From positions 29,106,505 to 29,170,504 of the forward strand of contig CM026571.1 of NCBI GenBank assembly GCA_015143295.1: a stretch of DNA of 64,000 nt. The letters are read 5' to 3'. Source of the DNA: Tetracentron sinense (lineage: Eukaryota; Streptophyta; Magnoliopsida; Trochodendrales; Trochodendraceae). The notes beneath the pieces were generated by a model that did not search any database, had not been told where the DNA came from, and was given only the letters and a program-made list of their open reading frames with translations. The first letter of the stretch is position 1. Each line of letters starts with the position of its first letter. A program made the translations under genes and the position numbers. Below, piece by piece: positions 3,655-63,451 of the stretch.

Positions 3655-3698
3655 GTCCATTTGAGGTTGCTTCCGATCCTTGGGTCGAGGAGGAGTAA
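3655..3698 (+). other. Conserved short frame at LTR 3' end (first LTR)
   Basis: Downstream of the acceptor-like GGCAG|GT (ends 3654) a frame reads PFEVASDPWVEEE and stops at TAA 3696-3698. It is the degenerate member of the set found at 6994, 9908, 12325, 23038, 57376 and 63342; beyond the stop the nucleotide similarity continues (YEPKP). Coding function is an inference from the shared motif. Confidence 0.5.
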
Positions 3699-4011
3699 TA
3701 TGAGCCTAAGCCTACTATGGATCATCCGCTCGAGGATAGAGCACTAGATAGGTGGCCCTATCTAGACTACTGTTGAGAGGGTGAGGGAGAGATTTGTATA
3801 TTTTGATAAGTGGGAATGTCCACTTTACACTTTTTATATTTTGTTAACATTTTGTTGGTTCAAACTTGGATACTTGTACAGGTTTAGTATATTTAGAAAA
3901 TTTAGTTTCCGCTATTGGTATGCCTTGTGTATTGCACAAGATGGTATGATATGATTTAGGTCACGTGGCAAAAAGTCTCCAATCTTTTAGGGGGTATTTT
4001 GGGTCACGACA

Positions 4012-5128
4012 TCTTTATTTTTAAATTCTCCTCCCCTATCACACTTCTTATGTTATTAATAGAATAGTCTTTTTCATTTTGCACTCTTTTACAAAATTTA
4101 TCAAATAAAGTATGTGCTTCACTTTTGTGTGATAAAAATAATACCCATGTATATCTAGAGTAGTTATTAACAATTACAAATGCGTACACTTTACCACCTA
4201 GGCTAGCAACATCATTAGGCCCAAAAGAATCTAAATGGAGAAGTTCTAATGGCCTAGAAGTTGAGATTTCTTTCTTCTTTTTGAAAGATGATTTGATTTG
4301 TTTTACTAATTGACATGCATCAAAAACTTTATCTTTAACAAATTTAGTTTTAGGTAAACCTTTAACTAATTCATTACTAGATAGTTTTGAAATTAAGTCC
4401 ATACTAGCTTGTCCTAATCTCGTATGCCATAACCAACTAGTTTCATTTAAGGCTGAAAAACATATCATATTTTGAGAAGTGATTTCATCAAATTCAATAG
4501 TATAGACATTTCCATTTCTATATGCAATGAACATGGTACTAACATTGTCTTTATCCTTAATCATGCACATTTAGATTTAAAAGATACATTTAGTCATTTG
4601 TCACAAAGTTGGCTAATACTAATTAGATTATGTTTTAAACTTTCTACTAAAGTACATTTTCAATAAAGTTAGAATTGTTCTTACCAACATTACCTATCCC
4701 GATGATCTTCCCCTTTGAGTTGTCTCCAAAGGTCACATGCCCTCCATCTTTAGGAGAAGAGAAATTGATATGAATAACTTCTTTTTCCCCGTCATATGCC
4801 TTGAGCAACCGCTATCCAAGAACCATGTAGTCTTAGAGGAACTTGACTTCATGCATACCTATAATACAAGTTCAAGTAACTCCCTTTAGTACCCAAACCC
4901 TTTTGGGTCCTAATTGGTTAGTCTTGGGAGCGGTTGTTCCCTTAGGAACCCAAACTGGCTTAACTCTCTTCTTTCTAATATATTTGTAAGTAGTACTAGA
5001 AGAAGTGTTTGAACTACTAGATGTGGCAAAGAAATTTTGATAGTTATTTTGCTTGATTGATAAGTTATAACTGATCCCGGCCTTATCAAACACATATCTT
5101 TGTTTCCTTAGTAATGCATCTAAGTTCT
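4012..5128 (-). pseudogene. Ty1/copia pol fragment (protease to integrase core), broken
   Basis: On the minus strand this holds, in order, a decayed aspartic protease region (WFLDSGCS-type motif near 4808-4835), a GAG-pre-integrase segment (LWHTRLGQAS, near 4412-4441) and the start of the integrase core (LELLHLDSFGP, near 4215-4250). The frame 4004-4570 is the longest open piece. Relative to the family the first conserved Asp context is altered (NNYSRY, where DDFSRY is usual). It is cut at the left by the LTR ending at 4011 and at the right by element A starting at 5129, so it is the oldest layer seen here. The type resembles the SIRE-like lineage but is not the same copy as 35162-46305. Confidence 0.8.
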
Positions 5129-5349
5129 TGTAATGACCTGAATTAAATTCCTCATTTTCATATTATATGATTTAATTTTCTAGATAAATATGCTTGAATT
5201 ATTCATCAATTTTATGAGAAATTAATGTGTTAAAAATCTCGAATTAGAAAATCCATTTATTTCATTCAATCGATCTAGTTTGGAGAAATAAATTGCATGA
5301 AATAAAAGAAGAATAAAAAGTAGTAAAAGACTAAAAAAAAAAAAAAGGA

Positions 5350-5380
5350 GATCGGCGTGGCTGATCGATTGCTCGATGTG
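5350..5380. repeat. GATCG-rich palindromic segment, element A LTR
   Basis: GATCGGC...CTGATCGATTGCTCGATG lies about 60-90 bp upstream of TATA. It is this family's counterpart of the palindrome arrays in the other LTRs; the 3' LTR copy (51297-51343) has more units. Confidence 0.6.
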
Positions 5381-5505
5381 GGACGTTTTCCATGTTTCAT
5401 GATTTTTTGATTTTTTTTAACTCCCAAGGATCTCAAAACTCTATAAATAACCCTCAAACTCGAGAGTTAGGGTTTCCATAGGCTTCTAAACCTAAAAGGG
5501 AGAAA

Positions 5506-7097
5506 ATGGAGAGTTTTCTGAGAGATCAAAAAGGGGAGACTGAAGGAGTTCAAAGGGTGGATCAGAAAAAGGAGGAAAGAGGCTTGAAGATCGGTATAAA
5601 ACCTTATTCGCAAGCAATAGATCGTAAGGAAGCGATCAAGTGAGGTAAAATAACGAATCTAGTGATCCATATTTTGAATTTTAACCTAAAAGGATGAATG
5701 AAAAGGAGTAAATCTAGTAAGAATGTAAGAATATGTATGATCTATGAACATGTTTATGATTCCTATTTCATTAATTCTTGAATCGTTAAAATAGGATGTG
5801 AATAACCATATTTATGATTCCTATTTCATTAATTCTTGAATCGTTAAAATAGGATGTGAATAACCATATTTATGATTCCTATTTCATTATTCTTGAATCG
5901 CTAAATTAGGATGTGAAGAACCATGTTAAAAATTTGTTTATGATTCAACAAGGGGATTAGAAAATTATATTGAATGTATGTGGATTTATGAGGAGAATGT
6001 GATGAATGGATGGAATGGAATGAATGAATTGAATGATTGAGATGAATTAATTGTGAGATGTTAATTGTATGTTAGTTTGATTTTGTGATTATAATTCATG
6101 AGAGTTGTTATCGATGAAAGGTGTGATATAATTAGGATATTGATCTTGATTACACAAAAGGGGATTTTGATATTATATTAGATCGTGACTTATGTTTATT
6201 TTACTATCAATTGTGATTTTAGATTATCGAATCACTAGAAATATGAAAGGTTGTGTGTTTATTTTATATTTCTTTATACGTGATATACAATTGGGTAAAT
6301 GAACCTTTGATGAGAGTCAAGCTTGCCTAGGCCTGGTTAACATAGTGGAATGAGACGCTATGGTGAGATGTCCTATGGCCCTTGACGGTTAGTCTTAGGT
6401 GTAATTTAAACAAAAGGTGTATCATTGTGCACTCACGAATGAAAAATATGTATATGAATGAAGAGAGAATCAATGACACTAAGAAGATTATAAGTAAGAC
6501 TAAACGTAAAGTAAGTAAATAAGAAAGAAAGACATACGAAAGCGATAATGCATGTTGTATTTTGCACCACCGAATACCATCAAAAGGGCGAGAAGTATTC
6601 CAAAGTAAGTAAGCCGTCATATTAGAAAATGTACTTAGCCGTCTGTGCCGGATAATGTACGAAGGGTGGTATCTCAGTAAAGTAAAGTATAATAACCTCT
6701 TTCCTTATACGGTATAACGGTATTTTAATTTATTACCAATGTATGTGAATATGTGGTTCATGAAACGATAAAGTATGAAGTATAAAAAGTAACAAAGTAA
6801 GAAAAGTAAGAAAGTAAGGAAAGAAAGAAATTGACGTAATGTACCTGATTGTTTCCGCACTCAGATTATACATGTGAACTGATGTATGAATTTGTAAAAT
6901 GTATGCAAGTTAATGTTCATTATATTGTTCACTATGGTCTGTTATATACACGGAGTAACTTGTTACTCAACCAATGACTTTTGTTGTCGGCAGGTTCAGG
7001 TTTTGATATTTGTGTGCCCGGATCATAGGAAGAAGAGGAATACTTAGAGGAACCGGAAGGTGATTATCCCGAAGAAGAATGGGATCTTGATCATTAG
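5506..7097 (+). CDS. Possible spliced small frame inside element A LTR (hypothetical)
   Basis: ATG at 5506 opens a basic/acidic frame (starts MESFLRDQKGE) that runs 39 codons plus one base to a good donor, gatc|gtaagg, at 5623/5624. Joined to the acceptor after 6993 it continues in phase into GFDIC and, after a TAG at the position of the conserved Trp, EEEEYLEEP, ending at TAG 7095-7097. The donor choice is a guess; an alternative donor at 5644/5645 puts a TGA just before the junction. The downstream part matches the conserved frame of the other LTRs. The TAG means this copy would not make the full peptide. Confidence 0.3.
6965..6993 (+). promoter_or_regulatory. Stem-loop and splice-acceptor-like site, element A LTR
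   Basis: GAGTAAC-tt-GTTACTC is a perfect stem just upstream of TTGTTGTCGGCAG|GT. Other LTRs have CTGAG-N9-CTCAG at the same distance from the same acceptor-like sequence, so structure rather than sequence appears to be kept. Confidence 0.5.
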
Positions 7098-7386
7098 CCC
7101 TACTGTTAAAGTTAATTTATTAGTAGTCAAATTCCAGAGAGACTCTAATTGACTTTATGGAGATTCATGTATAGTTTAGTTTGATTAAGATCATTATGGA
7201 TGATCAGGATTTATTATATTTTAGTTACAGTTAAAGATTATCAATTTAATTAATGTTACTAATTGAAGAAATTTTTAAGTTCGTATTATGGTATGCCTTA
7301 AATGCTTTTAACAGGATGGTTTGTTAAGTAAGTCACGTGCCAAGATCTCACATTCTCATAGGTGGGGTTTTGGGAGGTGACAGAAG

Positions 7387-7398
7387 TGGTATCAGAGC
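7387..7398 (+). promoter_or_regulatory. Primer binding site (tRNA-iMet), element A
   Basis: TGGTATCAGAGC lies four bases after the 5' LTR, the standard plant LTR-retrotransposon site complementary to the 3' end of initiator methionine tRNA. The 167 bp to the gag ATG show nothing else. Confidence 0.95.
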
Positions 7399-7928: not shown

Positions 7929-8296
7929 TGTAGAACCCTGAAACTTTTGTATATGCCTTGGAATGTGTGTCAAGGCATGGTGCCTTTGTAATCTCCAATT
8001 TCCATGAAATGAGAAGTTTTAAAGAACTTAAGTATTAAGAAGTGGGATTCCTAAGTCGGATATATTAAAGATCCGGTTTGTTGAGCTCCATTGCGGATTA
8101 GTCAACTTTGGGGATAATTTTGTCCATAAATAAAGCTGAAATTAGAAATTATAAAATGCCAAGAATGTTCTCCTTCGAAAGACGAATCCAACACAAGTTG
8201 AATTGTCAAAATCTGACAGACGAGTCGAAAGTTATGGCCGAAACTCTGAAATAGGAAAAATGAGAAAAATCAGCAAAATAGGCAAAACACAGACCA

Positions 8297-8532
8297 CCGG
8301 TCGACCGCCCCCAGGACCGATCGACTGGTAGCCTACCGCTCGACCGCTAAGATGACCGATCGATCGCTCGCCTTACAGTCGACCGCTCTAACCACCGGTT
8401 GACCGCTCTAACCACGATCGACCGCTATCGCACTAATTTTGTATGGGGTTATTTTCTAGAGAGGGTCTTTTTGACCGATCGACCGCTCCCTATGACCGGT
8501 TGACCGCTCCCTATGACCAGTCGACCGCTCAT
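8297..8532. repeat. Palindrome array of about 20-21-bp units upstream of TATA
   Basis: Ten or so variants of ACCG(A/G)TCGACCGCT, with successive starts usually 19-22 bp apart (for example the three units GACCGATCGACCGCTCCCTAT and following at 8473-8530 are exactly 21 bp each). The array flanks a GCTATCG...GTATGGGG core at 8424-8466. Confidence 0.85.
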
Positions 8533-9449
8533 TTACGAATTTGCTTGGTTTGGTCCTTTTAAGCAGATCATTAAGGGTATGATGGTCTTTGACCATCCCC
8601 TTCTCTATATAAACCTAAGTTCGTGGGTTGAGGGTTTCATAAACCCTCAAACTTGTATTTTGGAAGAGTGAGAGAGGAGCAAGGGGATTTCTAACCTAGG
8701 GTTTGCATTTGAGAAAAATCAAAGGGTTTGAAGACCCTAGATCATCTCAAGCTTAGATTTCCTCAAGTTCAAGGCTCAAGCAAGCGAGGAGCACGTTCTC
8801 CAAAGCTAGGGCAGCATTCAACCTCGACTCTTACAAGGGGTTTCTTCCTCTATTCAAGGTCGGTACCTTATGCTACCCTCCTAGTTCATACTCCCTTTTT
8901 CTTTCCTTCTTCTTTGTCTTGCCTAATGTATGAACCTAAAGAGAGATGAATGGATGTGGTGTGAGAATGAATGTTGGGCGATGGATGCCATGTGGATGAT
9001 GTGATGAATGGAATGGGAAGGGCATTGTACCAATAATAAACATACGTGTGTGTTGTGAACACAAACCCACCTAGAAAAGTATGATGTAGGCTTTAATGAA
9101 TAATGTACACACCATGTGTTTGATGAAATGCCAAGGTGAAGAAAACGAGTTATAGATCAAATGCTTATGAAATTGCTAGGGCTTATGATAGTGTGATCAC
9201 TTGCTTTCCCTAAATGGCATAAATAATTACTTGTTTAAATTAATGATATTCTATGTATTGTTGAAATCCCCAAATGTCATATTTAATTTCAAATGAAAGT
9301 ATGCACACGATCCCACGAGCACGGAATGCATGACATGGTTTACCGATGATTTTCAAGAATAAGGATGTTAAAGGTGGGACATATCTTACGATATGTTTTA
9401 CCTCGCTTTCGACAAGGACACGAACAAGCATTTAATAGGAGGGAGTTTA

Positions 9450-9590
9450 CACTTCCCTCCCTTCCATGAGGGGTCTTTCCTTACTCACAAGTACATCTCA
9501 TTAAAGAAGGGTCTCCCTTTCCTCTCAAGTGCATATCATGAAAGAAGGGTCTCCCTTCCCTCCCAAGTGCATCTCACAAGCGCATCTCAC
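9450..9590 (+). repeat. Hairpin repeats in LTR leader
   Basis: GAAGGG-TCT-CCCTTC and GGAGGGAG...TTCCCTCC units followed by caagtgcat spacers. Arms vary between units but stay complementary. They lie between the donor-like and acceptor-like sites of this LTR. Confidence 0.8.
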
Positions 9591-9907
9591 AAGTCACATG
9601 AACATGATTAGATTCCAAGCAAGCACGCATGACACCCATGACATGACACGCTCAACAAGATCAAGCAAGACAAACATGACAAGTTTTCAAGTACGAAACC
9701 AGTATTTTAAGTCAAGTCAAGTGCACGATGATTTCAAGAGTTTTATCGGTTTTCTGTGATGCAAGCATGAATATAAACTGCTTTACTTTCTTGTTATGAT
9801 ATGAATTGCTTCCAGCTTTATATACCATTATTGTTATGTTGTGGCTATTGGTTAGCATTTGGTACACGTTGAGTATTCCATGCTCAGCCATACGTTTATG
9901 TCGGCAG

Positions 9908-10017
9908 GTGCTAAGTTAGCTGCTGCTCCATTTGATATCTGTGCTCCTTGCCTATGGGTGGAGGAGGAGTACGTTGAGGAACCTACGGAGGAGCCTCATG
10001 TAGACGAGTACTACTAG
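9908..10017 (+). other. Conserved short frame at LTR 3' end (solo LTR 7929)
   Basis: After the acceptor-like GGCAG|GT, a frame in phase 1 contains PFDICAPCLWVEEEYVEEP and ends in an acidic tail at TAG 10015-10017. It matches the frames at 57376 and 63342 closely, with synonymous changes (CCA for CCT, ATC for ATT). No in-frame ATG was found in the predicted first exon of this copy, which has a TAG. Confidence 0.6.
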
Positions 10018-10879: not shown

Positions 10880-11118
10880 TGTAAAGCCCCAAATTTTCAT
10901 CTCACGTATTTGTGAACAGTGTGTGTGAATAGTGCCCAAGTGTGATTTTGTACACTTAGGGGCCTTATGATTAATATATGAGTTTGGAATTAGGGAGTGC
11001 ATGTTTCAATGGGTCTATATATCGCTAAGGAGTGTGTATTAAGCATGAAAGAATGTTAGAAGTGGAATGGAGAAGATCCAAGTAGTGAAAACCAGGATTT
11101 CCAGCAAAACAGGGGATC

Positions 11119-11313
11119 ACTGATCGCTCGGTGACCTCCTCCGATCGATCGGTCAACTACTGATCGCTCGGTAGCTATCGCGCGGTCAAAAATTTTATAT
11201 GGGGAAATTTTCCAGAGAGGTTTTTTTCAACCGAGCTCTCGGCTGAAACCACCGATCGACCGGTAGGCCACCGATCATTCGGTCTAAACCACCGATAGAT
11301 CGGTTATACGCAG
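11119..11313. repeat. Palindrome array (CCGATCGATCGGT type), element B LTR
   Basis: Units GATCG(C/A)TCGG recur at 19-21-bp steps, on either side of the GTATGGGG-type core. The 3' LTR copy is 21851-22024 and lacks one unit. Confidence 0.85.
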
Positions 11314-12324
11314 AAATTCTTCATTAAGGGTGTTTAAGACATTGGCCACCACCCTTTGCCTATATAAGGGCTGGGTTCGTGCCTTAGGGTTTCAGAAACC
11401 CTCAGTGCATTATTTTGGAGCTTTTGAAGAGGAGAAGAAAGAGAGAACCTTGTTTTTGATCAAGCTTGAGGAAGATCAAGTTCTTCCATTTTCTTTGGTG
11501 ATTCTCAACCAAGAACCCACTGTTCTTGCTGGTTCCAGCTGTTAGGAATCAAAGTCCTTGATTTCTCTAAGGTAGATACACTCTACTACGATCTTGCAAT
11601 ACTACTAAGTTAGTAAATGAGGTTCTTCTATATCTATATTATCTATGTATATCTATCTTGTTGGATTGTGGTGAGAAAGTATGTGTTTATATACTTGGAT
11701 GAAAGATACTAATTATGATGCACTCTAAGTGTTTGATAAAATACCTCTAAGGGATTCTATGCTTAAATATGATGATTTCTCTCATTAAGTTCATATGCTC
11801 GCATGTCTCTCATGAATCGATGTTTTTCCACGGGTTTCTTAAAGTAGGAAAAAGGGTTTTTGAATAAAGGACTTAAATGATGATTCTAAGTAACTCTATG
11901 ATTTTTCTATGATCGGTTCACAAGCTCTACGGATCATACTATGCTCACAAGGAAACTCTATGATAAGCTCTAAGATCGTCTCACAAGCTCTACGGATCAT
12001 AAATGAAAATGCTCTAAGATCTCTAAGGATATGCTCTATGTGCTCTATGGTATCTCTATGTCTCTATGGATTATAATGACTCTAAGTAACTCCATGAACT
12101 CACAAGAACTCACAAGGCTATGATCATTGCATGACTCACACGGTTACAGTTTTGGTTTTGATTTTGGACCTCCTCTTACACGCTATTCCACGATTTCTAC
12201 GCTTTAACATGTTTTAAGCGTTTCAATCTCCATGACTTGTATGCTCTATGATTATTGCTTTATTATCATTAGTTTGTATATGCTGAGTATTCCACGCTCA
12301 GCCGATATTTGTTATCATCTGCAG

Positions 12325-12440
12325 GTGATCGGGTTCCATTCGATTTGTGTGGCGAAGAACCTTGGGTCGAGGAAGAGTACCATGACCCGGAGCCTTCCAT
12401 GGATCATCCTCAGGGCGATGGTCCCATAGATAGATGTTGA
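12325..12440 (+). other. Conserved short frame at LTR 3' end (element B 5' LTR)
   Basis: Phase-1 frame after ATCTGCAG|GT: VPFDLCGEEPWVEEEYHDPEP, ending TGA 12438-12440. It shares PFD, C, PWVEEEY and the EP ending with the other families although the LTRs are otherwise diverged. The 3' LTR copy (23038-23171) keeps the frame and reads past the lost TGA. Another frame over the same bases is also open, but its residues are not conserved between families. Confidence 0.6.
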
Positions 12441-14389: not shown

Positions 14390-14528
14390 GTACGCACAAG
14401 TTAATCTTGTCAAGGTTATAGTGTTGCTATGATATATGTTGTACTATATATATATCCTATGTGATGTTTTGCTATGCTTGGATCTATGTGAATAGTTTAT
14501 GTTATAACTTGGGTAGTTGAATTCTCAG
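14390..14528 (+). other. Predicted intron between gag and protease, element B
   Basis: AAG|GTACGC ... ATTCTCAG|GTT, 139 bp, AT-rich, with stops in the gag frame. Removing it joins VVQG to [17 protein letters not shown] in one frame. Element A has the same joint with a differently sequenced 180-bp insert (23828-24007). Splicing is inferred from the signals and frame. Confidence 0.75.
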
Positions 14529-16474: not shown

Positions 16475-17696
16475 TGTAGCGCCCTGGATTTTCTACAAGC
16501 ACTGTTCATGTGTAAGGACAGTTCATGTGAATGAATTGTGTCGAGGGCACTAGTATTGGAAGGGCCAAATGCTTTTATTATAAGTTGGGTTTGGTTAATG
16601 AGAGTGAGGGTTTCCTCATGGCTTGAGAGTGATGGGAGTTGGTGTATGAATTAAGAAGTGTAAGGTGTTTTGGGAAACATGAAAGAGTGTAAAAATACTC
16701 TAAGTGTCAATTTGAGCGATTTTGTAGCAGCCGGGGCCTCCCATGCATTTGGGTTGTGCCCAATGGGTTACCTTAGTTGGTTTAAGAACCTAGGGTCGGG
16801 AGCTATGAGAATGGAGTAGGGGTTGGATTCGAAGTGGATGGGTTATGAAAATACCCTTAGTATGTATGTAGAAACCCGGAACCGAGTTCCCTAGGCCGAG
16901 AATAGTGCCATGAATAGTGTGTGGATAGTGCCTTGTGTGGTGTGTGTAAAGGCTTAAGGCCTTTACATTTTGTTCTTGGTAGGATGGTCCATTTTGTTCT
17001 AGTTAGTGTGTTGAGTTAAGTGAGGATTTTAGGTGCTTGTTTTGAATCTCAAAAGAGAGTATAAAGATACTCTAAGTGTCTAAAAACAAGGGTATAAAAT
17101 ACCCTAAGTGTTTAAATGGGTTGTAGGTGAATGGTGCTAGTGCATGAGGCATAAAGAGGTCGGAGCCTCTCATGTATGTCGGTGTGACTATAATGATCAT
17201 TGAGGTGGGTTAAAAACCTATGGAGAATTATTTATGAGGTCTGAGTAGGGTGTTGGACCCAAGGGAAAATAGTGTGAAAACACTTGAAGTGTTATAGGTG
17301 TTGAAAAGGTATGTTTCGGCATTTACCTCAACTTTAAAGGACTCTAGTTTAGTCATCGTTGCTCGGAATTGAGTGAGTATTGAATTTTTGGAAAGGTATT
17401 AGAACCATCTTCGAGGTTCATGTTTACCATTTTTTCATATTTTGAGTCGGGGTTGAGTCAAAAGTCCGATTTCCAAAGTCGGGACTGTTGAAAATCTGGG
17501 CTGTCGAAACCCATTTAAAGACCAGTCAGTTTTGGAGCCATGTTTGGTAAAGTAAAACTCAAAATTTGGAGTTTTACAAAACATAAAAATTGTTTCCCTT
17601 CGAAATAAAAATCTAACGCAAGTTGAATCGTCAAAATCGGACCACCGAGTCAAAAGTTATGGCCAATTTATTGAAGCGCATTTTTGCAGAAAAACT

Positions 17697-17789
17697 CGAT
17701 CGAGCGAGATTGACCAAAATGTTGTTTTTGAGTACCGGGAGCAACTCGCTCGAGCGAGATTGAAGCCCGCTCGAGCGAGATTGCCTAGA
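17697..17789. repeat. Palindromes CGCTCGAGCGAG upstream of TATA
   Basis: Three copies of (C/T)CG(C/A)TCGAGCGAGATTG; the last two are exactly 21 bp apart. A family-specific core at the usual place about 40-130 bp upstream of TATA. Confidence 0.85.
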
Positions 17790-18029
17790 AATGTTTTTTT
17801 TTTGGGTTTTCCTCAACACAAACACCTATATATACCCCATTTTCGGGGGATCAAAGTTTCTAACACTTAGAGAATGACTTTTGGAGAGAAAAAGGGGGAA
17901 ACTTAGGTTTCCAAAAAGGGGGGTTTCTCTCAAGATCAAGGAAACCCCCAAATTCAATCTTCAAGCTTCTCAAGACCAAAAGGGGGAGCAAGGATCATGC
18001 AAGCCAAAGCTTTTCTCATGAGCTAAGCT

Positions 18030-19774
18030 ATGGGGAACGATCACAAAGGGGATTTCGTGAGAAAACCAAGAAGAGCTCAAATCCTCTTCTCCAAGGCCTT
18101 TCAAGCTTGGTTCTCATTCTTAGAAGCTCGGATCTTACGTCTTCAAGTCCCCTCAAGCTTTCTAGGGCTCACAACCAAAAAGATTTGGGTTTTCCAAGGT
18201 TAGTACACCCTTCTATCTACCTTAGTAATAACCTAGGCTTCCTCATGAATGTTGTAGATTAATTTCCCATATTGTTCATTTCTTGTGGTGATGCTTTAAT
18301 TTCCCAAAATAAACAAGATAAAGTAATAGATGTGGGTGTATGGATGGATGGTGGTTGAGGCGATTGGATGCTGGGTGTGGTGATGTGTGTGGTGTGATGG
18401 AATGGTGAAAGGACAATGTATGCATAAGAAACATACTCTATGTGTGGGATGAAATGTATGAAGTAACAACTTGAATAAACAAGTAAGAAAATGATACACA
18501 CCAAGTGTTTGATGAATTGCTTGCTTGTATGAGAAATTCATGTGTTAATCAATACTACGAAACGCATGAACTATAGGGTTTTTCATGAATGATGATGTGG
18601 ACCAAATGCCATGAACATGTACTTAAATTCTCATACACCTATTAATGAAATGTTGCATGCAAGGTGGTTAATGTAAGGCATGTGTGAAATGTTGAACCAA
18701 AAACTATGAAGCATGAGATAGGGACTTTTCCCAAATTCTAGTAATTATGATGTGATGCCTTATGATTCTCCTCAATTTCTGATGTGCCTAGAAATGTTAA
18801 AATGCTACTAGAAATCCTTTGAGTCATCATGCTACCATGCTTTTCACGACTTACTATGCACACGAGCACGCACGCATGCATGAATCTGGTTTTTGAAAAG
18901 TTAATGTATATGAGGAACAAGCAAGAACATGAAAGGGATTTTAAATCAAATGCTCTATACAATTGTTAAATTCTCAAGTGATTATAATAATAATTGAATT
19001 GCTACATGTTATCCTTTAAATTGCTCATGTTATTATGAATTGCCACAATTGCTACACCAAGCACGGTTCATGCAAGGACCAAGTTTTCTAAGCACATGAA
19101 AATGACATGTCAAGGAGGTTGGTAGCCCAGGTGAAGGGTACTAGCCTCTGGCTCACAAGTGAATGAAACAAGTATATGTCAAGGAGGTTGGTAGCCCAGG
19201 TGAAGGGTACTAGCCTCTGGCTCACAAGTAAATGAAACAATTACATGTCAAGGAGGTTGGTAGCCCAAGTGAAGGGTGCTAGCCTCTGGCTCACAAGAAA
19301 GGCTCACAAGAAAAGGCTCACAAGAAAGGCTCACAAGAGAATGATATGTCAAGGAGGTTGGTAGCCCAGGGATGTGCGGGTGCTAACCTCTGGCTCACAA
19401 GTATACAAGTAAGAACAAGTCAAGAGCATGACAAGAACAAGCAAGGCATGTGTGATTCCCACGATACAAGAACAAGACAAGAATAAGTTCTAAATACAGC
19501 AAACAAGTTTTGAAAACCATGAAAATTATTTTCAAGAATAGGTCATATTTTTGAATATGAGTTTGCAATGCATGAGTTAAAGTATGATGTTCATGATTTA
19601 CTTTACACTGTTATTTCGCTTTAGCTTCCGCACTTTGATTATGTATCTTTTGATGAATTGTATCATGTATGACATATTAATGTTATTACTAATGTTAGTT
19701 AGTAGCTTGTACTCGCTGAGTATTCCATGCTCAGCCGTACTTTTATGTCGGCAGGTACACTAGATGATATGTAG
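18030..19774 (+). CDS. Possible spliced small frame in the solo LTR (hypothetical)
   Basis: ATG at 18030 opens 56 codons plus one base, with no stop, up to the donor-like ccaag|gttagtac (18198/18199). The residues are basic (MGNDHKGDFVRKPRRAQ start). With the acceptor after 19754 it continues in phase for a few codons to TAG 19772-19774; past that TAG the same frame shows PWIE, aligning with the PWVE of the other LTRs. The reading needs an unproven intron of 1556 bp and this copy would stop early. Confidence 0.3.
19106..19400 (+). repeat. Tandem repeat of about 69 bp in LTR leader
   Basis: Units beginning caaggaggttggtagcccag start at 19111, 19180, 19249 and 19350 (steps 69, 69, 101). The longer step contains three extra ctcacaagaaagg copies. 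Each unit holds GAGG..TAG facing CTAGCCTC, an imperfect hairpin. Confidence 0.9.
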
Positions 19775-20136
19775 ACTCTGGTCCCTTGGATCGAGGTAGC
19801 TCAGGGAGAGCAGGTGGTTATTCGGATGGTTAGCCAGATGTTAGGGGTTGGCCTGTGGCCATAGGGTAGAATGAGAGAGAGAGAGACATGTATTTTGGGA
19901 TTTCCTTTTGGGGATTTTTCATGTGAGCTTGAGTGGGTAACTCAAGCATTTATATTATTGTGATTATTGTATTTTATTCAGTCGTTGTGTATGTTGACAC
20001 TTGGAATTAAATTTATCTTAAAGAAATTTTTCGGATCACGATTTGGCATGCCTCGTATACTCCTTGCAGGATCGATTAAGGTCAAGTCACATTGCCAAAG
20101 TATCCTAACTCGTAGGGGGTATTTTGGGGCGTTACA

Positions 20137-21526
20137 TTGAGTTGCTTGCTTACCGAGACAAGTCGGTTAGTAATGGCAGTCAGGAGTTTGCTTTGAATGG
20201 TGATGGTGCTATCACTTTCAAAGGCAGGTTGTGCGTTCCAGCCGAAACAGTGTTGAGGGGTGAGATTTTGGATGAGGCTCACCGATCCAAATACACGGTA
20301 CATCCGGGAGGTACCAAGATGTATCAGAATCTGAAGAGGCACTACTGGTGGCGAAACATGAAGAGGGAAGTCATCGAGTATGTTGCTAGATGTCTGGTGT
20401 GCCAGCAGGTGAAAGCCGAGCATCAGAGGCCGGCAGGTCTTTTACAGTCCCTTCCTATTTTAGAATGGAAATGGGAGAATATTTCGATGGATTTCGTCGT
20501 GGGTTTGCTGCGAACGGCGAAGGGCTCCAATGCTATTTGGGTGATTGTAGACAGATTGACTAAGTCTGCACACTTCATTCCTTATCGGACTACTTTCAAT
20601 GCGAATCCGTTATTAACCCTGTATGTCAAGGAGGTAGTTCTTCTGCACGGTGTGCCAGTTTCCATCGTATCTGATCGAGAACCTAGGTTTACTTCAAGAT
20701 TCTGGAAAACTTTTCAGGATGCTATGGGTTCTCGTTTAGAATTCCGCACCGCCTTTCATCCTCAAACTGATGGGCAGACTGAACGGGTAAATCAGGTGGT
20801 GGAGGATATGCTCCGAGCTTGTATGTTAGATTTTCAGGGTAGTTGGGAGGAACAATTACCGTTGGTTGAGTTTGCCTACAACAACAGTTACCAGGCAAGC
20901 ATCCAGATGGCACCTTTCGAAGCTCTATATGGTCGCAGTTGCAGATCTCCGCTATACTGGGATGAAGTTGGTGAGAGAAAGGTACTTGGTCCTGAGTTGA
21001 TTGAGCAGACCGCAGAAAGGGTCAAGATTATCCGGGAGCGATTGAAAACTGCTCAGGATAGGCAGAAGAGCTATGCGGACACTCGCCGTCGAAATTGGAG
21101 TTCCGAGTTGGAGATCGGGTCTTTGTGAAGATTTCGCCGAGTCGAGGAATCATGAGATTTGGAAGGAAGGGAAAGCTCAGTCCTAGGTACATAGGACCAT
21201 TTGAGATCATCACGAGGGTTGGTGAGGTTGCTTATAGGGTAGCACTACCGCCTCACATGGCAGCGGTCCAAAATGTATTTCACGTCTCTATGCTTAGGAA
21301 ATACATTTCGGACCTATCTCACGTCATTGCTCTTGATCCTGTGGAGATTAGAGAGGATCTCACGTTGGTTGAGCAACCAATTCAAATTTTGGATCGTCGA
21401 GATCAAGTGTTGAGGAACAAGACTATCTCTTTAGTCCTTGTGAAGTGGCAACATCATTCCAAGGAAGAAGCTACATGGGAACGGGAAGCCGAGATGAAGG
21501 AAAAGTATCCTCACTTGTTCGAGTAA
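20137..21526 (+). pseudogene. Element B pol, integrase and chromodomain part
   Basis: Integrase starts LLAYRDKSV; the H-H-C-C finger is intact (HPGGTKMYQNLKRHYWW...CLVCQQVK). Core residues: MDFVVGL (Asp), VSDREPRF (Asp kept; the next acidic residue is Glu where Asp is usual) and TERVNQVVED (Glu). A one-frame slip near 21085-21095 separates 20124-21128 from 21095-21526. The latter holds VGDRVFVKISP, LSPRYIGPF and a C-terminal chromodomain-like end (PIQILDRRDQVLRNK...VKWQHHSKEEATWE...KYPHLFE). The chromodomain marks the chromovirus clade and is thought to guide integration to heterochromatin. Confidence 0.94.
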
Positions 21527-21613: not shown

Positions 21614-23476
21614 TGTAAAGCCCCAAATTTTCATCTCACATATTTGTGAACAATGTGTGTGATTAGTGCCCAAGTGTGATTTTGTACACTTAGGGGCCTT
21701 ATAATTAATATACGAGTTTGGAATTATAGAGTGCATGTTTCAATGGGTCTATATATTGCTAAGGAGTGTGTATTAAGCATGAAAGAATGTTAGAAGTGGA
21801 TTGGAGAAGATCCAAGTAGTGAAAACCAGGTTTTTCAGCAAAATAGGGGATCACCGATCGCTCGGTGACATCCTCCGATCGATCGGTCAACTACCGATCG
21901 CTCGGTAGCTATCGTGCGGTCAAAAATTTTGTATGGGGAAATTTTCCAGAGAGGTTGTTTTCAACCGAGCTCTCGGCTGAAACCACCGATCGCTCGGTCT
22001 ATACCACCGATCGATCGGTTATACATAGAAATTCTTCATTAAGGGTGTTTAAGACATTGGCCACCACCCTTTGCCTATATAAGGGCTGGGTTCGTGCCTT
22101 AGGGTTTCAGAAACCCTCAGTGCATTATTTTGGAGCTTTTGAAGAGGAGAAGAAGGAGAGAACCTTGTTGTTGATCAAGCTTGAGGAAGATCAAGTTCTT
22201 CCATTTTCTTTGGTGATTCTCAACCAAGAACCCACTGTTCTTGCTGGTTCCAGCTGTTAGGAAACAAAGTCCTTGATTTCTCTAAGGTAGATACACTCTA
22301 CTACGATCTTGCAATACTACTAAGTTAGTAAATGAGGTTCTTCTATATCTATATTATCTATGTATATCTATCTTGTTGGATTGTGGTGAGAAAGTATGTG
22401 TTTATATACTTGGATGAAAGATACTAATTATGATGCACTCTAAGTGTTTGATAAAATACCTCTAAGGGATTCTATGCTTAAATATGATGATTTCTCTCAT
22501 TAAGTTCATATGCTCGCATGTCTCTCATGAACCGATGTTTTTCCACGGGTTTCTTAAAGTAGGAAAAAGGGTTTTTGAATAAAGGACTTAAATGATGATT
22601 CTAAGTAACTCTATGATTTTTCTATGATCGGTTCACAAGCTCTACGGATCATACTATGCTCACAAGGAAACTCTATGATAAGCTCTAAGATCGTCTCACA
22701 AGCTCTACGGATCATAAATGAAAATGCTCTAAGATCTCTAAGGATATGCTCTATGTGCTCTATGGTATCTCTATGTCTACGGATTATAATGACTCTAAGT
22801 AACTCCATGAACTCACAAGAACTCACAAGGCTATGATCATCGCATGACTCACACGGTTACAGTTTTGGTTTTGATTTTGGACCTCCTCTTACACGCTATT
22901 CCACGATTTCTACACTTTAACATGTTTTAAGGGTTTCAATCTCCATGACTTGTATGCTCTATGATTATTGCTTTATTATCATTAGTTTGTATACGCTGAG
23001 TATTCCACGCTCAGCCGATATTTGTTATCATCGGCAGGTGATCGGGTTCCATTCGATTTGTGTGGTGAAGAACCTTGGGTCGAGGAAGAGTACCATGACC
23101 CGGAGCCTTCCATGGATCATCCTCAGGGCGATGGTCCCATAGATAGATGTCGAGACTTTGATTTCTGTTGATCGACAGACTTGGTCAATAGAGTCATTCA
23201 GTATTTTGTTATGTGAGTGTGGGACTTGTCCACTCCACTTTTGGATCTTCACCTGTATATTTTGTTGGTTCATACTTGAGCCAAGTTATAGGAGTGTTCT
23301 CTTTTGCTTCCGCTATGTTTGTATTTTTATTTCTGCTGCGTTTTGTTTTCGTTTCCGCTACATACGTTGTGTTCTGACAGGTCTCCACGTGTGCCTTATG
23401 TATGATACTGGAAGTGTGTACGGCGGTCACGAGTCAAGGTATCCCTAACTCCTAGGGGGTATTTTGGGTCACGACA
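21614..23476 (+). mobile_element. Element B 3' LTR
   Basis: TGTAAAGCCC to TCACGACA, 1863 bp. Same signals as the 5' copy: palindromes 21851-22024, core 21907-21954, TATA 22076-22083, acceptor-like TCGGCAG|GT after 23037, conserved short frame 23038-23171. Followed by the actac duplication. Confidence 0.96.
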
Positions 23477-23827: not shown

Positions 23828-24007
23828 GTACGTATGACTTATAATTTAATTAAATTGAGTTATTTGCATGTTGCAAATTGATTGTATAATTTAGAATTAT
23901 AGGGACATGATATTATATATGTATATATATGATCTCACGAAGTTATATACGTGGTATGATTTAAATTATGATATATTAAATTAACACTTAGTTATTTATG
24001 AAATCAG
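23828..24007 (+). other. Predicted intron between gag and protease, element A
   Basis: CAGG|GTACGTATG ... GAAATCAG|GATC, 180 bp, very AT-rich with a good plant donor. Removal joins VVQG to SLLINDCLAHVLIDT in frame, exactly as in element B, though the two inserts share little sequence beyond the ends. Confidence 0.72.
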
Positions 24008-45072: not shown

Positions 45073-46305
45073 TGAAATTTATCCAGATCAATGATCTCTA
45101 AGACCTAGAGGGGGGGTGAATAGGTCTATCTAATAATTTCTAACCAATTTTAATTTTTCAATTAATATGTTTAGAAATCAATGATTAATTCAATCAGACA
45201 ATCCACACAAATCAAACACAGAAGATTTTTACGTGGAAAACCCTAACGGGAAAAAACCACGGGACCTTGTCCAGCAATAAACTTCACTATGAAAAGATAT
45301 CAAGTACAAGAAAAGACCTTACCAAAACAGAAACTACGTTCCTAGGTATAGACTCTTACTCTTGATTTCCACGAACCAGCAGGTTCGATCTCCGCCTTAG
45401 CAGCTTCGGTTCCACACCGACCAAATCTTTTCAAGCAACTTCAAATCCACGATCACACACGATCGATCTCCTTCCACGAAGGCTCCGGATCAAACACCGG
45501 ACACACACACAAGGTGTAGGGTTGTGAATCAATTTAGTAAATTTCAAACCCTAGAGGAATCTCATACAGATCTGAGATCACACAATGCAAGATCAAAGAT
45601 TTAGATCTATACTTGCATTCTCTAGGATCTAAGAAAGAGGAGGGATCAACAAAGATCTAATAAAAGCAATAAGAAAAACCCTAGAAGAGTTTCTCAGACC
45701 TCTACTCTTTCAAAAATATCAAAGACACGAATTAGGTCTCTCAAAAGTTGTTTATATAGGGTTAAAAAAAGAATCCAGAAAAAGAAAAATTCTTTTTACG
45801 GGGACCGATCGATCGGTGCTCACTACCGATCGCTCGGTTCACAACGGATCGATCGGTTCTAATGACCGATCGCTCGGTTCTAAATCACCTCTCTGAAAAA
45901 TTTCCCCATACAAATATTTGGTCCAGTCGATAGCCACCGATCGCTCGGTAGGCCACCGATCGATCGGTCGCAATACCGAGCGATCGGTTGAGACAGAATT
46001 TTTGCCAAAACCATTTTCATTTTATTTTTATTTGATTCAACTAAGATCAAATATCTTTGGTAGGCTTAAAATTATCCTCCTAGGTATTCTTAGGGTTATC
46101 TAAGTCAAATGCAACCTAGGTAGGGTCTCTAAGTCCATTACCTGTCTAGATCCGGAGTAGAACCTTTTTCCTTCACTTTCTTCAATCTTCCTTAAGCTTT
46201 AGCTCTTCTCTTCTCTTCTGACAAGTTGAACATGACTCGACGACTCGACTCAACTGACCTATCTAATGATCACGGAATTTTCCAACACCTATTTAGGGAT
46301 TTACA
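45073..46305 (-). mobile_element. 5' LTR of the SIRE-like element
   Basis: 1233 bp, near-identical to the 3' LTR. TATA (plus ttatata) 45752-45758; palindromes 45803-45988; shared core 45887-45935. Confidence 0.97.
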
Positions 46306-48170: not shown

Positions 48171-50338
48171 TGTTAGACATGTATGCCTACAAAGCCATTC
48201 CGGAATTGTATTTATCTATTTCTAAATCAATAAGTGCATATTTTACATTCACACATTGTCTTCTACATTGGGTAATATATTAAAAGTATTTCATTGGATG
48301 AGACTACTTTGTCCCTTAGGTAACATTGTAGGAAAACCATCCAATTAGTTGATAACTGATTGCTAAGGAGATATGGTTTTTCCGGTTCCTTGTAGTCCTA
48401 AAATTGTTCTAAGTTAATCAAGATGCATCTGGATAATGTATTCCTAATAACTTACACATTGTCAGTTCCGTATGATGGAGTGATGAATCTCAATCACTGA
48501 GAGAAGGGTCTCTTGACTAAAATGTGGATATAAGTAAGAAGTACTTATATTGCAACTGGATCGCTCAGTGGATACCCTTAGAAATATACTGTCTTTATAT
48601 TTAGGGTAGTCAATTTGATAGATTATCCTTAACCTGAGAGGTCGACATCTTCTCTAGTATTTGCCTATGTAGCTTTGATGTAGCCAATCGTCAATGTCCA
48701 ACACATCGAACTAAATACGGGCTCGTTGGGTTATGTACGCTCAACAAGGATTCCACTACTCTGACAGAGTAAATAATATTGAGTTGATACTTATATCAAA
48801 ACCGGACTTGAAAAACCCAGCGCTGGTATTTATCAATGAAATGGTTTTATCGATGAATTTATTTTTTGTATAAAAGAAATGTAATAATAATTATTATTTC
48901 TTTTAAAGAATTTTTAAAATGTTTTGCAAGTCCAAGTTTGACTAAAAGTATCAAAGAGAATGGGTTCTCAATATAAGCCAGGGATTAAAGACAATATTAG
49001 ATATTGTCCCGTAAGCTTATAACAATATTGGAAGTGGAGGGACTGATCTGTAAACAAATCTTGAGATAGAAATACCTGCAAGTAATTCTCTATTTTCTGG
49101 AGGTTAATCACATTGTGTTAATGGACATTAATTGTGATTAGTGGAAGTCCAGGGATATAGATAAAATTCTATAATCCTAATGGAGTGTAGGAAAGGTGTT
49201 TCCTAGTAACAATACTTTAACTAAAAGGTTGAATACTTGGTCCCACAACCGGAAATAAGAGATCCCTTTAGATCCCACACACAAGGACTTTCTTAAAGTA
49301 TTTAATTTAATGATTTATTAAATTAATTAATTTCTTTAAGAAATCACTATATGGTATAGTGAAGCTCTAAACGGAGGAATCACATTAAATGTGAAAAACC
49401 AAATGGGTAGGACCCATTGGGAGACAAAAATGGGTTTAGAACCCATGGGGGTGTGTGGAGTGGGGCCCACCTAGGGTAGGACGCCCACTTCAAGGAGGAT
49501 AATGTTATTGTTTAATTTTTTTAATAAGTTTCTAATTAATAACTCCTTATGAGATAAGGTTGGTTAGTTACTTACTTACTTACTGATTGAAGATTCCCTA
49601 ATTGTTAGGGATTCCATTAGTTTGTTACTAATCATTAATTAGTTAGTTACTAATTAAAAAGATTCCTTATTGGATAAGGATTTGGTTAGTTAGTTACTAA
49701 TGGATAAAATTAGTTTCTATTTTGATTAATCCTAATTAATTAAAGGAGAAATAAAAAAGGAAACAAGTGAGAATTCCTTATTGGATAAGGATTAGGAGAC
49801 TTGGGTTGCAAGCAACCCAAGTAAACACCTATATATAGAGGTGTACGGTCACTTTAGTGGACACAAGAAAAATTTCCAAAATTTTTAAGATTTGGAAATC
49901 CCTCTCCTCCCTCATTATCTCTCATGCCCAAGCTTCCCTTCTCCCTAAGGTGTACGGTCACACCTTCTCCCCTTAATTCTTCCTTTTGTTTTCTAGTTTG
50001 AAAATAAAGAAGAGGAATTTCAAGGTTCTTGAAGATCAAGATTAGATCTTTTATTCAAGATTCCTAGAGTTGGATATTTGGAAGGGCCATTAGCTTCCAT
50101 TAGAAAAAGCTTTAAAGAAAAAGAAGGTCCATGTGGATTGTGAAGGAGACTTGGCACTTGTGAAGTTTTGCCGGTATAACTTTTATCGTGGATTTGACTT
50201 AACAATTTCAAAGTCGCAAAGGTATTGTGATTTTTACTCTCATTGAATAAAATCAATTAGAATCTTAGTCTGATCTTGGGATTCGATGTATGCCCCCCAA
50301 GAACTGTTTTTCTATAATTAAAAAGAGGCATACTTTCA
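48171..50338 (+). mobile_element. 3' LTR of the outer copia element
   Basis: TGTTAGACAT to CATACTTTCA, 2168 bp, followed by gatga. Differs from the 5' LTR by scattered substitutions and several indels. Confidence 0.95.
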
Positions 50339-55133: not shown

Positions 55134-55137
55134 GCTC

Positions 55138-55830: not shown

Positions 55831-56017
55831 ACGAACGATAGTACCAACCCTATGAACGATCGTAGGTGAGCTACGATCGATCGTAGAAGGTTACGATCGT
55901 TCGTAGAATCTCAAAAATTGGCAAAAATCTCAGTAACATTTACGATCGATCGTGGAAACTTACGACCGATCGTAGGATATTTTCGATCGATCGTAGACAT
56001 GTTACGATCGATTGTAG
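55831..56017. repeat. Palindrome array (TACGATCGATCGTA) upstream of TATA
   Basis: Eight variants of ACGATCGATCGTAG; successive starts mostly 20-21 bp apart (20, 21, 21 in the second group). Own core sequence for this family, same position and spacing as in the others. Confidence 0.88.
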
Positions 56018-56161
56018 ATCGCGAACCCAGAATTTTAATTCGTGATTTTTAGGGTTTCTTCTGTTTGCCTATAAATAGGGGATGTTATTTGGGGGTTTTG
56101 GTTTACCCTAAACCTAAAGAGAGCCTAAGAGAGATTAGAGAAGAAGAAGAGAGGAGAGATT

Positions 56162-57503
56162 ATGGATTTGCCAAGAGGGTTGAGATTGAAGAAGAAGGAG
56201 ATCAAGATCAAGGGTAATCTTCCCCAAATCAAGCAAGGGGGTTTCTCCAAGCTCAGTAGTGCCTCCACACACATTTTTGGAGGGTTTTCCTCACCCATTG
56301 AAGGTTGGTACCCTATGCTACTCATCTAGTTCATTTCTTCTTTCTTTTCTTCACTTTTATAGTTTTTCCCCAATTCTAAGCATGAGAATATGATGGGAAG
56401 AATGGATGTTGTGATGAATGAAATGGGAAGGGTATTGTACCAATAATGAATACACATGTATGTTGTGAACATAAACCCATCTAGAAAAGGCATGATATAG
56501 GCTTAAACCAATAATGTACACACTAGATGTTTGATGAAATGCCAAGGTGAAGAAAACAAATTATAAACTAAGAAAGACATGATTAAAGTATATGGAAATT
56601 GCTAGGGTTTATGATAGTGTGATTAATTGCTTTCTTTAATGGTATGAATAATTACTTGCGAAATTAATGTTATTCTATGTGTTGGTGAAATCCAAATTGT
56701 CATATTTAAATTCCAAGTGAAAGTATATACACGATTCCACGAGCACGACATGCATGACTTGGTTTACCGGTGTTTTTCAAGAATAATGATTTTAGAGGTA
56801 GGACATATCTTACGATATGTTTTGCCTCGCTTTTGACAAGAATAAGTGCATATCATTTAAGGAGGGGTCTCCCCTCCCTCACAAGTACATTTCATAGAAG
56901 AGAGGGGCCTCCCCTCTCTCGCAAGTAGTATCTCAATTAGAGAAGGGTCTCCCTTCCCTCGCAAGTGCATTGCATAAGAGGGGGTTTTACACCACCCTCC
57001 CTCACAAGTTGCATAAGAGGGGTCTCCCCTCCTTCACAAGTGTATTTCATTCCCAGCAAGCATGAAATGACATGGCATTATACACATGACAAGCATGACA
57101 TGCATGGAACAACAAGACAAGGAAAAAGAAGAACATGACAAGACAAGTTTTCAAGTACGAAAAGAGTATTTTAAGTCAAGACGAGTGCACGATGATTTCA
57201 AGAGTTTTATCAGCTTTTATGTGATGCAAGCATGAATATAAACTATTTTACTTTTCTGTTGTTACATGAATTGCTTCTTGCTTTATATATATCGTTATTG
57301 TTATGCTATGACTGTTGGTTAGTATTTGGTACCCGTTGAGTATTCCATGCTCAGCCGTACTTCTCATGTCGGTAGGTGATAGTGGAGCGACGGCTCCTTT
57401 TGATATTTGTGCTCCTGGCCCATGGGTGGAGGAGGAGTACGTTGAGGAACCTGTGGACGAACCTCTGGTAGAGGCTACTATTAGTGTGGTAGGTTCTAGG
57501 TGA
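56162..57503 (+). CDS. Possible spliced small protein gene inside the LTR, 89 aa (hypothetical)
   Basis: Exon 1 56162-56303: ATG about 85 bp after TATA, 47 codons plus one base, basic (start MDLPRGLRLKKKEIKIK). Predicted intron 56304-57375 (GT-AG, 1072 bp). Exon 2 57376-57503 in phase: GDSGATAPFDICAPG then PWVEEEYVEEP and a tail to TGA 57501-57503, acidic. The exon 2 frame is shared with LTRs at 3655, 6994, 9908, 12325 and 63342, with mostly third-base changes. Exon 1 is not evidently conserved between families, and two related LTRs have stops in it. No known family recognised. Existence of the spliced mRNA is an inference. Confidence 0.4.
56855..57050 (+). repeat. Hairpin repeats with compensating arms in LTR leader
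   Basis: GGAGGGG-TCT-CCCCTCC, GAGAGGGG-CCT-CCCCTCTC, GAAGGG-TCT-CCCTTC and related units, each followed by a (t/g)cacaagt spacer. The arms change together between units. Confidence 0.85.
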
Positions 57504-59970: not shown

Positions 59971-60111
59971 TCTAGTCTTTTTCTCTCTTTTTTGAGTTGC
60001 ACTATCCTGTACTAATTCACTCTACATGCATCAATGAAAAATATTTTTTCTAGCATCGTCTTCCTGTCATCATGCATAATCGTGATTAGCCGTTGCATTT
60101 TTTTCAGTTGC

Positions 60112-61239: not shown

Positions 61240-61527
61240 TATTAGACATGATGCCCAAAAAATTCATTTAGATTATTAGAACCTTATTAATTTGATTAAT
61301 AAATGGTTCTTCTTAATCTATTGTGTATTCATTATGGGTAATTGACCATGATCATGAGATGATCTATACGATATGAGATATCGATAAAGGTCCATAGGAT
61401 ATATTGTAGCAAAGTTATGTGATTAGATTATCAAAGAAATATATGACTTTTTGGTTCCTTATACTTTATATAGTCACAGCTAAGGGTGAAGCTGGGCACT
61501 TCACTTATATGGCTACCAGACTGTTAA
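61240..61527 (+). mobile_element. Copia-type LTR fragment
   Basis: TATTAGACATGATGCCC (first G of TGTTAGACATG changed) opens an AT-rich stretch resembling copia LTR starts such as 29101 and 48171 only at the terminus. It is cut at 61527 by the next LTR; the remainder would lie right of the window. Orientation inferred from the start. Confidence 0.5.
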
Positions 61528-61738
61528 TATAGAGCCCCGGACTTTTTCATGCTTAATACATGGCACTTTCGTAGCCAATTTGCCTTTAAAGTAGTACAAT
61601 TAATAAATAAGGAAGAAATTAAAAATTCCAAAAAATCAAAAATGTTCTTTTTCGAAGTACGAACCCAACGCAAGTTGAATCGTCGAAATCCGACGAGCGA
61701 GTCAAAAGATATGGCCAAAACAGTTTAGACCTGCAGAC

Positions 61739-61924
61739 CACCGATCGCTCGATCCATGGAGCGATCGATCGGTCCAAAACCGATCGATCGGTAGCTATCG
61801 ACTGGTCGAAAAATTTGCATGGGGAAATTTTCCAGAGAGTTGATTTTTGGTCAAGAGCTCGGTCAACACACCGATCGCTCGGTAGGCAACCGATCGATCG
61901 GTCATAAACACCGATCGCTCGGTC
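61739..61924. repeat. Palindrome array (CCGATCG(C/A)TCGGT) upstream of TATA
   Basis: Units flank the GCTATCG...GCATGGGGAAATTTT core, as in element B and the SIRE LTR. About 60-250 bp upstream of TATATA. Confidence 0.85.
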
Positions 61925-62835
61925 TTCGTGTTTTTGCAGAAATTTCATTAAGGGTGTTTTCGTCTTTTGGGCATTTCACCCTTTCCTATATAGGATTGCC
62001 CGAGCCTTTAGGGCTCATTTACCACACTTAGAGGATATTAGAGAGGAAGAGAGAAGAGAAGGATTTTCCTAACCTAGGGTTTGATTTTTGAGAAGAAATC
62101 AAAGGGTTTGTGAACCCTAGATCACCTCAAGCTTGGATTGCTTCAAGATTCCGATTCAAGCACGCGAGGAGGAGTTTCTCCTAGCTAGGGCAGTGCCTCA
62201 CGAACTTTTTTGGAGGAGTTTTCTTCCTCATTGATCAAGGTCGGTACTTCTTGCTACCCTCCTAGTTATAGTTCCTTCTTTTCCTTTATTTCTCTTTGTT
62301 TTCTTTCATTTACACATGTGCTATGAGATGGATGGGTGTGAATGGTGAATGGAGATGAAATGGGCGATTGGATGGCGTATGTATGATTGTGATGAATGAA
62401 ATGGGGAGGGCATTGTGCAAATAATAAACATACAAGTGTGATGTGAGTATAACCCACCTAGAAAAGCATGACCTAGGTTAAGAAAATAATGAACACACCC
62501 TATGTTTGATGAAACGCCAAGGTGAATAAAATGAGTGATAAATTAAGGGAATACATGCTTCATTATTCATGAAATTGTTAGGGCTTATGATAGTGTGTTT
62601 CTTACATTTCTTAAAATGTGTAAATTATTACTTGCTTAAATTGTGATATGCTATGCTTTATGAATTACCCAAATTGTCATATTTAATTCCAAATGCAAGT
62701 ATGCACACGATCTCACGAGCACGCATGCATGATATGGGTTCCCGACGTTTTTCAAGAATGGGATTTAGAGGTGGGACATATCCTACGATATGTTTTACCT
62801 CGCTTTTCACAAGAAAACAAGAACAAACATTTCAC

Positions 62836-63005
62836 GAGGGGTGTCCCCTCACTCACAAGTGCATAGCATAAAGAAGGGCCTCCCTTCCCTCGCAAGTACA
62901 TACATATCATGAAGAAGGGTCTCCCTTCCCTCTCAAGTGCATTGCATAAAGAAGGGTCTCCCTTCCCTCTCAAGGCATCTCACAAGCGCATCTCATAAGT
63001 GTATC
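62836..63005 (+). repeat. Hairpin repeats in LTR leader
   Basis: GAGGGG-TGT-CCCCTC, GAAGGG-CCT-CCCTTC and GAAGGG-TCT-CCCTTC units spaced by ctcacaagt/ctcgcaagt. Confidence 0.85.
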
Positions 63006-63341
63006 TCACAAGTTACATGATCACAAGCAAGCACGCATGACATGCATGACATGACACGACATACAAGAATCAAACAAGATAGACAAGACGAGTTTTCAAG
63101 CACGAAAATGGTACCTTAAGTCAAGTCAAGCGCACGGTGTTTTCAAGGGTTTTATCGGCTTTTATGAATGCAAGCATGATTATATACTGCTTTACTTTAT
63201 TGTTATGATATTAATTATTCCTGCTTTGTATGCGTGAATTGTTTCCTGCTCTATGTATCGCTGTCTGTATGCAATGACTGTTGGTTAGTATTTGGTACAC
63301 ACTGAGTATTCCATGCTCAGCCGTACTTCTTATGTCGGCAG

Positions 63342-63451
63342 GTGATAGCGGAGCAACTGCTCCTTTTGATGTTTGTGCTCCTGGCCCATGGGTGGAGGAG
63401 GAGTACGTCGAGGAACCTTTGGAGGAACCTCCAGTAGAGGGTTACCATTAG
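63342..63451 (+). other. Conserved short frame at LTR 3' end (LTR 61528)
   Basis: Phase-1 frame after the acceptor-like site: GDSGATAPFDVCAPG, PWVEEEYVEEP, acidic tail, TAG 63449-63451. Nearly the same as the 57376 copy. Its predicted first exon has a TAG and no ATG in the required phase, so this copy could only be translated another way. Confidence 0.6.

Follow-up and report, generated by a model that had tools for sequence, protein, structure and literature searches.

Plant elements have long terminal repeats (LTRs) that are usually regarded as non-coding, and the locus described here raises the question of whether one lineage of such elements carries a protein-coding exon within them. The window is a stretch of 64,000 nucleotides from Tetracentron sinense (assembly GCA_015143295.1, contig CM026571.1, positions 29,106,505 to 29,170,504 of the forward strand) with retrotransposons of families that we call A to G. 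A sequence-only reading had proposed that a short frame in their LTRs encodes a small acidic protein, or protein domain, that is or was selected. We conclude that this frame is almost certainly a selected coding frame, and that it most probably serves as the tail of a Gag isoform. The segment is termed exon 2, to distinguish it from an exon 1 located upstream of a proposed intron in the LTR, and is found at the following positions.

3655..3776, + strand: LTR exon 2 of family A, this copy interrupted by one in-frame stop
6994..7097, + strand: LTR exon 2 of family B, a stop in place of the W codon in this copy
9908..10017, + strand: LTR exon 2 of family C, open
12325..12440, + strand: LTR exon 2 of family D, 5' LTR, open
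23038..23171, + strand: LTR exon 2 of family D, open, in the 3' LTR that pairs with the 5' LTR at 12325
19755..19864, + strand: place homologous to exon 2 in the non-autonomous family E, motif gone except PWIE
57376..57503, + strand: LTR exon 2 of family F, open
63342..63451, + strand: LTR exon 2 of family G, 5' LTR, open

Exon 2 is read with its first codon starting after the GT of the AG/GT acceptor (the slash marks the splice site). Translation in this one shared phase bore out the motif PFD.C..PWVEEEY..EP, intact or as a damaged copy, in seven LTRs of six families. The copy of family C at 9908 reads AKLAAAPFDICAPCLWVEEEYVEEPTEEPHVDEYY and then a stop, the two D copies at 12325 and 23038 read DRVPFDLCGEEPWVEEEYHDPEPSMDHPQGDGPIDRC, that of family F at 57376 begins DSGATAPFDICAPGPWVEEEYVEEPVDEP, and that of family G at 63342 reads DSGATAPFDVCAPGPWVEEEYVEEPLEEPPVEGYH and a stop, exon 2 being open also in the 3' LTR of G (L031). 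The A copy at 3655 consists of PFEVASDPWVEEE, an in-frame stop and YEPKPTMDHP..., and lacks Cys, while the B copy at 6994 reads SGFDICVPGS before its stop, with EEEEYLEEP on reading through; intact versions occur in other copies of both damaged families (L110 and L117 for A, L135 for B). Some details of the sequence-only reading have to be revised. The splice site had been given as GGCAG/GT throughout, but the acceptor is TGCAG at 12325 and GGTAG at 57376. The LTRs, counted as six to seven different ones, are indeed seven, but those at 12325 and 23038 belong to one element. The exon is not at the 3' end of the LTR but about 400 bases before it, and the weaker PWIE noted at 19755 is present but lies after a stop, the rest of the motif being missing. 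No homologue of the peptide was confirmed among viral contigs and none was found in a protein collection, both of which may not hold plant sequences, and a Pfam search with four of the peptides matched no family.

The evidence for selection comes from copies of these LTRs drawn from the same genome (1.16 Gb). Forty copies were listed per family, and sets of 30 were taken for C and for D and of 20 each for E, B and A (for A, 19 were used, as the anchor was not found in L108). Each search scored 40 of 2,088-4,893 first-look candidates, so that copies near the window's own are over-represented, a bias that favours intact copies and not third-base change. As old copies decay neutrally, singletons, which represent decay, were set apart from variants common to at least five copies, which were inherited from source elements. 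This comparison covers A, B and C; exon 2 of D and E is too uniform for it.

Shared variants in exon 2 are distributed over the three codon positions as 0/0/7 in family C, all 7 synonymous, as 0/0/6 in family A, all 6 synonymous, and as 1/1/5 in family B, with 4 of 7 synonymous. When the three are pooled, 18 of the 20 shared variants lie at third positions, and the ratio of synonymous to other variants is 17:3, versus 24:86 for singletons (p 1e-7). In a larger set of 39 C-type sequences, which leaves out L031, it is 9:3, with a joint p of 2e-6. The pattern is confined to one frame: the same variant columns give 1:19 and 4:16 in the other two frames, shared variants in the 60 columns upstream of the exon are distributed 6/5/0 by position in the three families together, and in family C the spread across codon positions is flat or irregular for exon 1, for parts of the intron and for the sequence that follows the stop. 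Between families, too, differences in the 10-codon core of real copies fall mainly on third bases, as had been claimed. Purifying selection on this frame is thus demonstrated in three families, and the expected synonymous excess in a wider sample of genome copies was obtained. The inference of a selected protein or domain is supported for families A and C; family B, taken alone, supports it weakly (p 0.08), and a selected coding frame is likely in D, F and G. Since intact copies exist in damaged families and the codon test is both significant and frame-specific, the frame is more than a chance occurrence.

Exon 2 is roughly 30-40 codons long and its frame closes with a stop. An ATG at the frame entry is absent from all 30 D, 19 A and 20 B copies, and exon 1 of D, C and G supplies no start. 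Because it ends in a stop and has neither a shared start nor one provided by exon 1, exon 2 looks like a terminal exon entered by splicing, an interpretation in which we have good confidence. It has the selected reading frame within the LTR that is expected of a protein of the Sag type, and the A, B and D copies lack a complete frame with a start of its own. We favour the term "domain" over "small protein", as there is no conserved start codon and exon 1 has no codon pattern in family C.

A terminal exon needs a donor, and a candidate is found at the end of gag. The elements are chromodomain-bearing Ty3/gypsy elements (chromoviruses). The G element (L031) has the gene order protease, reverse transcriptase, RNase H, integrase, and gag is also present; the chromodomain was detected in element D, where the scan was made (PF00385, E 8.5e-7, 29.2 bits vs a cut-off of 25.1). 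Just past the LTR ends at 7387, 12770 and 63755 is the primer site TGGTATCAGAGC, which we take to fit tRNA-Met.

14390..14528, + strand: gag-protease intron of element D, phase 1 (G/GT)
23828..24007, + strand: gag-protease intron of element B, phase 1 (G/GA)
21101..21523, + strand: polyprotein end with chromodomain (PF00385), element D

In B, D, G, C and A, the polyprotein is broken directly after ..DVVQG or ..DVVEG by an intron of about 140-180 bases with the donor G/GTACG. Its phase is that of the LTR exon, and this match holds in 5 of 5 families readable there (A, B, C, D and G, with one copy each for C and A). As in a short-GAG strategy, the gag donor is in phase with the alternative acceptor, phase 1 being found on both sides in all five. 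Seven gag-end stretches were fetched, of which L142, L143 and L148 hold the junction and L144-L147 do not; L142 was assigned to C, L143 to A, and L160-L162 to their intronless elements by LTR spacing alone.

The intron is genuine in relatives of G, as intronless copies have lost exactly that sequence. Among these relatives, all 40 scored matches to a probe for the spliced gag-protease junction span it, and the loss was exact in all 17 copies fetched from the 40 intronless ones listed; intron-bearing copies filled all 40 scored matches of another probe. A tree of 32 sequences (15 with and 17 without the intron) needs four changes, at least two of which are forced by well-supported branches, the bootstrap being not settled. 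This suggests more than one intron loss, one of which was then amplified, and the exact losses together with the tree imply that spliced RNA was copied back more than once. Both kinds of copy thus occur, with the intron and precisely without it (L151-L159, L163, L177-L183; L164-L176).

On balance, the model that we find best, and towards which we lean slightly, is that splicing also joins the gag donor to the exon in the 3' LTR; this donor is real and in phase, and its use with exon 2 is what we infer. Transcripts that extend into the 3' LTR would allow the gag donor (..VVQ G/) to bypass the protease acceptor and join the LTR acceptor AG/GT. The product would be a short mRNA for Gag with an acidic, LTR-encoded tail, while splicing to the protease acceptor instead would yield Gag-Pol. 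The likely purpose would be to supply Gag in excess of Gag-Pol, with the tail acting in assembly or RNA handling; by analogy to the CERV protein of Cer1, a role in the export of intron-containing genomic RNA may also be considered.

Several observations weigh against this interpretation. The gag+exon 2 junction did not turn up among 40 scored matches for G or among 40 for D, whereas all 40 scored matches of the gag+protease probe span their junction. Intronless copies lack the gag donor, yet all 3 examined have kept exon 2 open, so that either there is no strict need for a fusion or these elements are too young to be informative. Two introns would share a phase by chance one time in three. An in-frame ATG lies 12 bases upstream of the exon in the window copies of C, E, F and G. 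Among the controls of the coding test, one is less clean: in family D, 10 of the 18 variants present in at least 4 copies between -160 and -60 lie on third positions of this frame.

Family E provides a natural control, and the LTR sequence upstream of exon 2 has to be considered with it.

16479-20144, with L149 and L150: family E, a non-autonomous family with large LTRs and a short interior, LTR splice region in common with the autonomous families
8859..9907, + strand: proposed LTR leader intron of family C, donor AAG/GTCGGT, donor and acceptor read in sequence
11572-12324 and 22287-23037, + strand: proposed leader intron of equal layout, family D (from sequence only, as for the next three)
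18199-19754, + strand: the same, family E
56304-57375, + strand: the same, family F
62240-63341, + strand: the same, family G
9844..9907, + strand: conserved 64 bases upstream of the acceptor, with the inverted repeat TGAG..CTCA

The region of the acceptor belongs to the best conserved stretches of the LTR in family C: diversity averages 0.08 from -64 to -20, 0.12 from -20 to 0 and 0.08 in exon 2, in contrast to 0.32 in exon 1 and 0.23 downstream of the stop. Conservation of the 9-mer around the donor ranks 75 of 580, which is moderate support only. In family E the 64 bases before the acceptor are 81-89% identical to those of C, F and G. Two of its internal regions (1.9 kb each) have the primer site, and the best of their matches to the gag and pol pieces used for comparison is not significant (E 0.058 over 13 residues); by eye, the last bases of L149 resemble the very end of pol. 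The exon 2 motif is lost in this family. For diverged pairs, exon 2 identity with free gaps is close to that of shuffled sequence (mean 0.72, maximum 0.81) and was used only for this contrast. A cis-acting RNA signal should persist in a passenger element, whereas a protein supplied by others need not; as family E lacks gag and has lost the motif while keeping the splice region, the contrast, which represents one family and one event, points to a protein role.

A hairpin formed by TGAG..CTCA before the acceptor was considered, and its z-scores of 0.16 to -2.17 across seven LTRs are too weak to claim it. At 6943-6996 in family B, the inverted repeat is GAGTAAC..GTTACTC vs GCTGAG..CTCAGC in the other LTRs, as if pairing were kept; folding energies were not decisive.

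The donor that serves exon 2 could also be another one in the element, for example within pol, exon 2 still being a selected terminal exon. Several consensus-like phase 1 donors occur in gag and pol of element D, and the missing gag+exon 2 junction (G and D, 40 scored each) would be accounted for; only the gag donor, however, is proven by exact intron loss, and we regard a different partner as unlikely. Translation of a free-standing LTR microprotein from the unspliced frame, beginning at the ATG 12 bases upstream (ATG TCG GCA GGT) or at a non-AUG codon, would fit the ATG in the window copies of C, E, F and G, the G of which is kept in 26 of 30 C copies. Yet an ATG is missing here from all of the 30 D, 19 A and 20 B copies, even though A and B show the codon pattern, which disfavours an unspliced peptide with an ATG start; in addition, an indel separates the upstream frames of C, D and E from those of F and G, and the site is more than 700 bases downstream of the TATA box. 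We therefore consider such a microprotein improbable.

That the segment is kept for a role as RNA or DNA, such as a purine-rich splicing enhancer by the acceptor, and looks coding by accident, has in its favour GGAGGAGGAG near the acceptor in several LTRs and the 64 bases before it, which are conserved equally to the exon, and the D stretch is a mild warning that third-position bias can occur without coding. What makes this explanation quite improbable is that the bias is confined to one frame, that the same residues are specified by different codons across families, and that family E retains the splice region while losing the exon motif. A two-exon protein encoded wholly in the LTR, by exon 1 and exon 2, was favoured at first for the open frame in family F, where exon 1 contains an ATG and runs without a stop up to the donor, in a phase that matches exon 2; exon 1 is also open for tens of codons in several C copies. 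It was dropped after the codon-position test, as exon 1 of C shows no codon pattern (shared variants 39/37/38 by position). Moreover, a stop directly precedes the donor in that phase in both D LTRs, the open tails in the window copies of C and G contain no Met, and an intronless LTR joining exon 1 to exon 2 was found in 0 of 40 scored matches to a C probe, so that this protein appears highly improbable. Returning to the fusion with Gag, we see as evenly balanced the full proposition that a trans-acting domain is encoded in the LTR by the autonomous members of this chromovirus lineage, as a selected terminal exon that is fused to Gag by alternative splicing and has been dropped by a non-autonomous relative that keeps the splice signal.

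Parts of this arrangement have counterparts in known systems. In the Ty1/copia elements EVADE (Arabidopsis) and BARE1 (barley), alternative splicing after gag yields a short GAG mRNA (PMC12786077), and a Gag-only mRNA arising in this manner is what we propose here. The EVADE/BARE1 splice removes the protease domain, with a premature stop soon after the junction (PMC12786077), whereas in our Ty3/gypsy elements with a chromodomain the acceptor that we propose lies in the 3' LTR and the putative junction would add a selected tail. For CERV of Cer1, a Gypsy/Ty3 element of C. elegans, splicing links exons in the Gag frame with an exon located in the element's 3' part, which yields a second protein (PMC10309623); no sequence similarity is claimed. 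Ogre is likewise a Ty3/gypsy element with a polyprotein broken by a spliceosomal intron (PMC6317226), but it is a non-chromovirus in which the intron follows the protease, between GAG-PROT and RT (reverse transcriptase), and not between gag and protease as here (PMC6317226). Sag of mouse mammary tumour virus (MMTV) resembles our case as a protein encoded in the LTR, but is an open reading frame of U3 with its own expression (PMC9412291), while exon 2 is short, startless and located past the TATA box, and we claim no likeness in sequence. According to a 2025 review, plant LTR retrotransposons are generally without introns, Ogre and EVADE being exceptions (PMC12786077). In the literature, coverage of which was partial, we recognised no account of plant LTRs with a coding exon or of chromoviruses with an intron between gag and protease. 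Nef of human immunodeficiency virus (HIV) is a further LTR-encoded protein.

A coding exon in the LTR, if true, would mean that LTRs carry protein-coding information beside promoter and replication signals, and would bear on annotation and on the dating of insertions by LTR divergence. It also opens to testing with existing RNA data the question of how these elements produce surplus Gag, or how they export RNA that retains introns.

Some further features of the window were noted. Upstream of the TATA box are family-specific arrays of short palindrome-like motifs, recognised by eye (11110-11310, 61735-61925, 55835-56020, 8295-8530 and 17695-17785), for example CCGATCGATCGG in D and G, ACGATCGATCGT in F and CTCGCTCGAGCGAG in E. 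Direct repeats at 35204-35503 and 45110-45409, about 9.9 kb apart, are 100% identical over 300 bases and are probably the LTRs of a young element. A second pair, at 29101-31251 and 48171-50268, is 97-99% identical.
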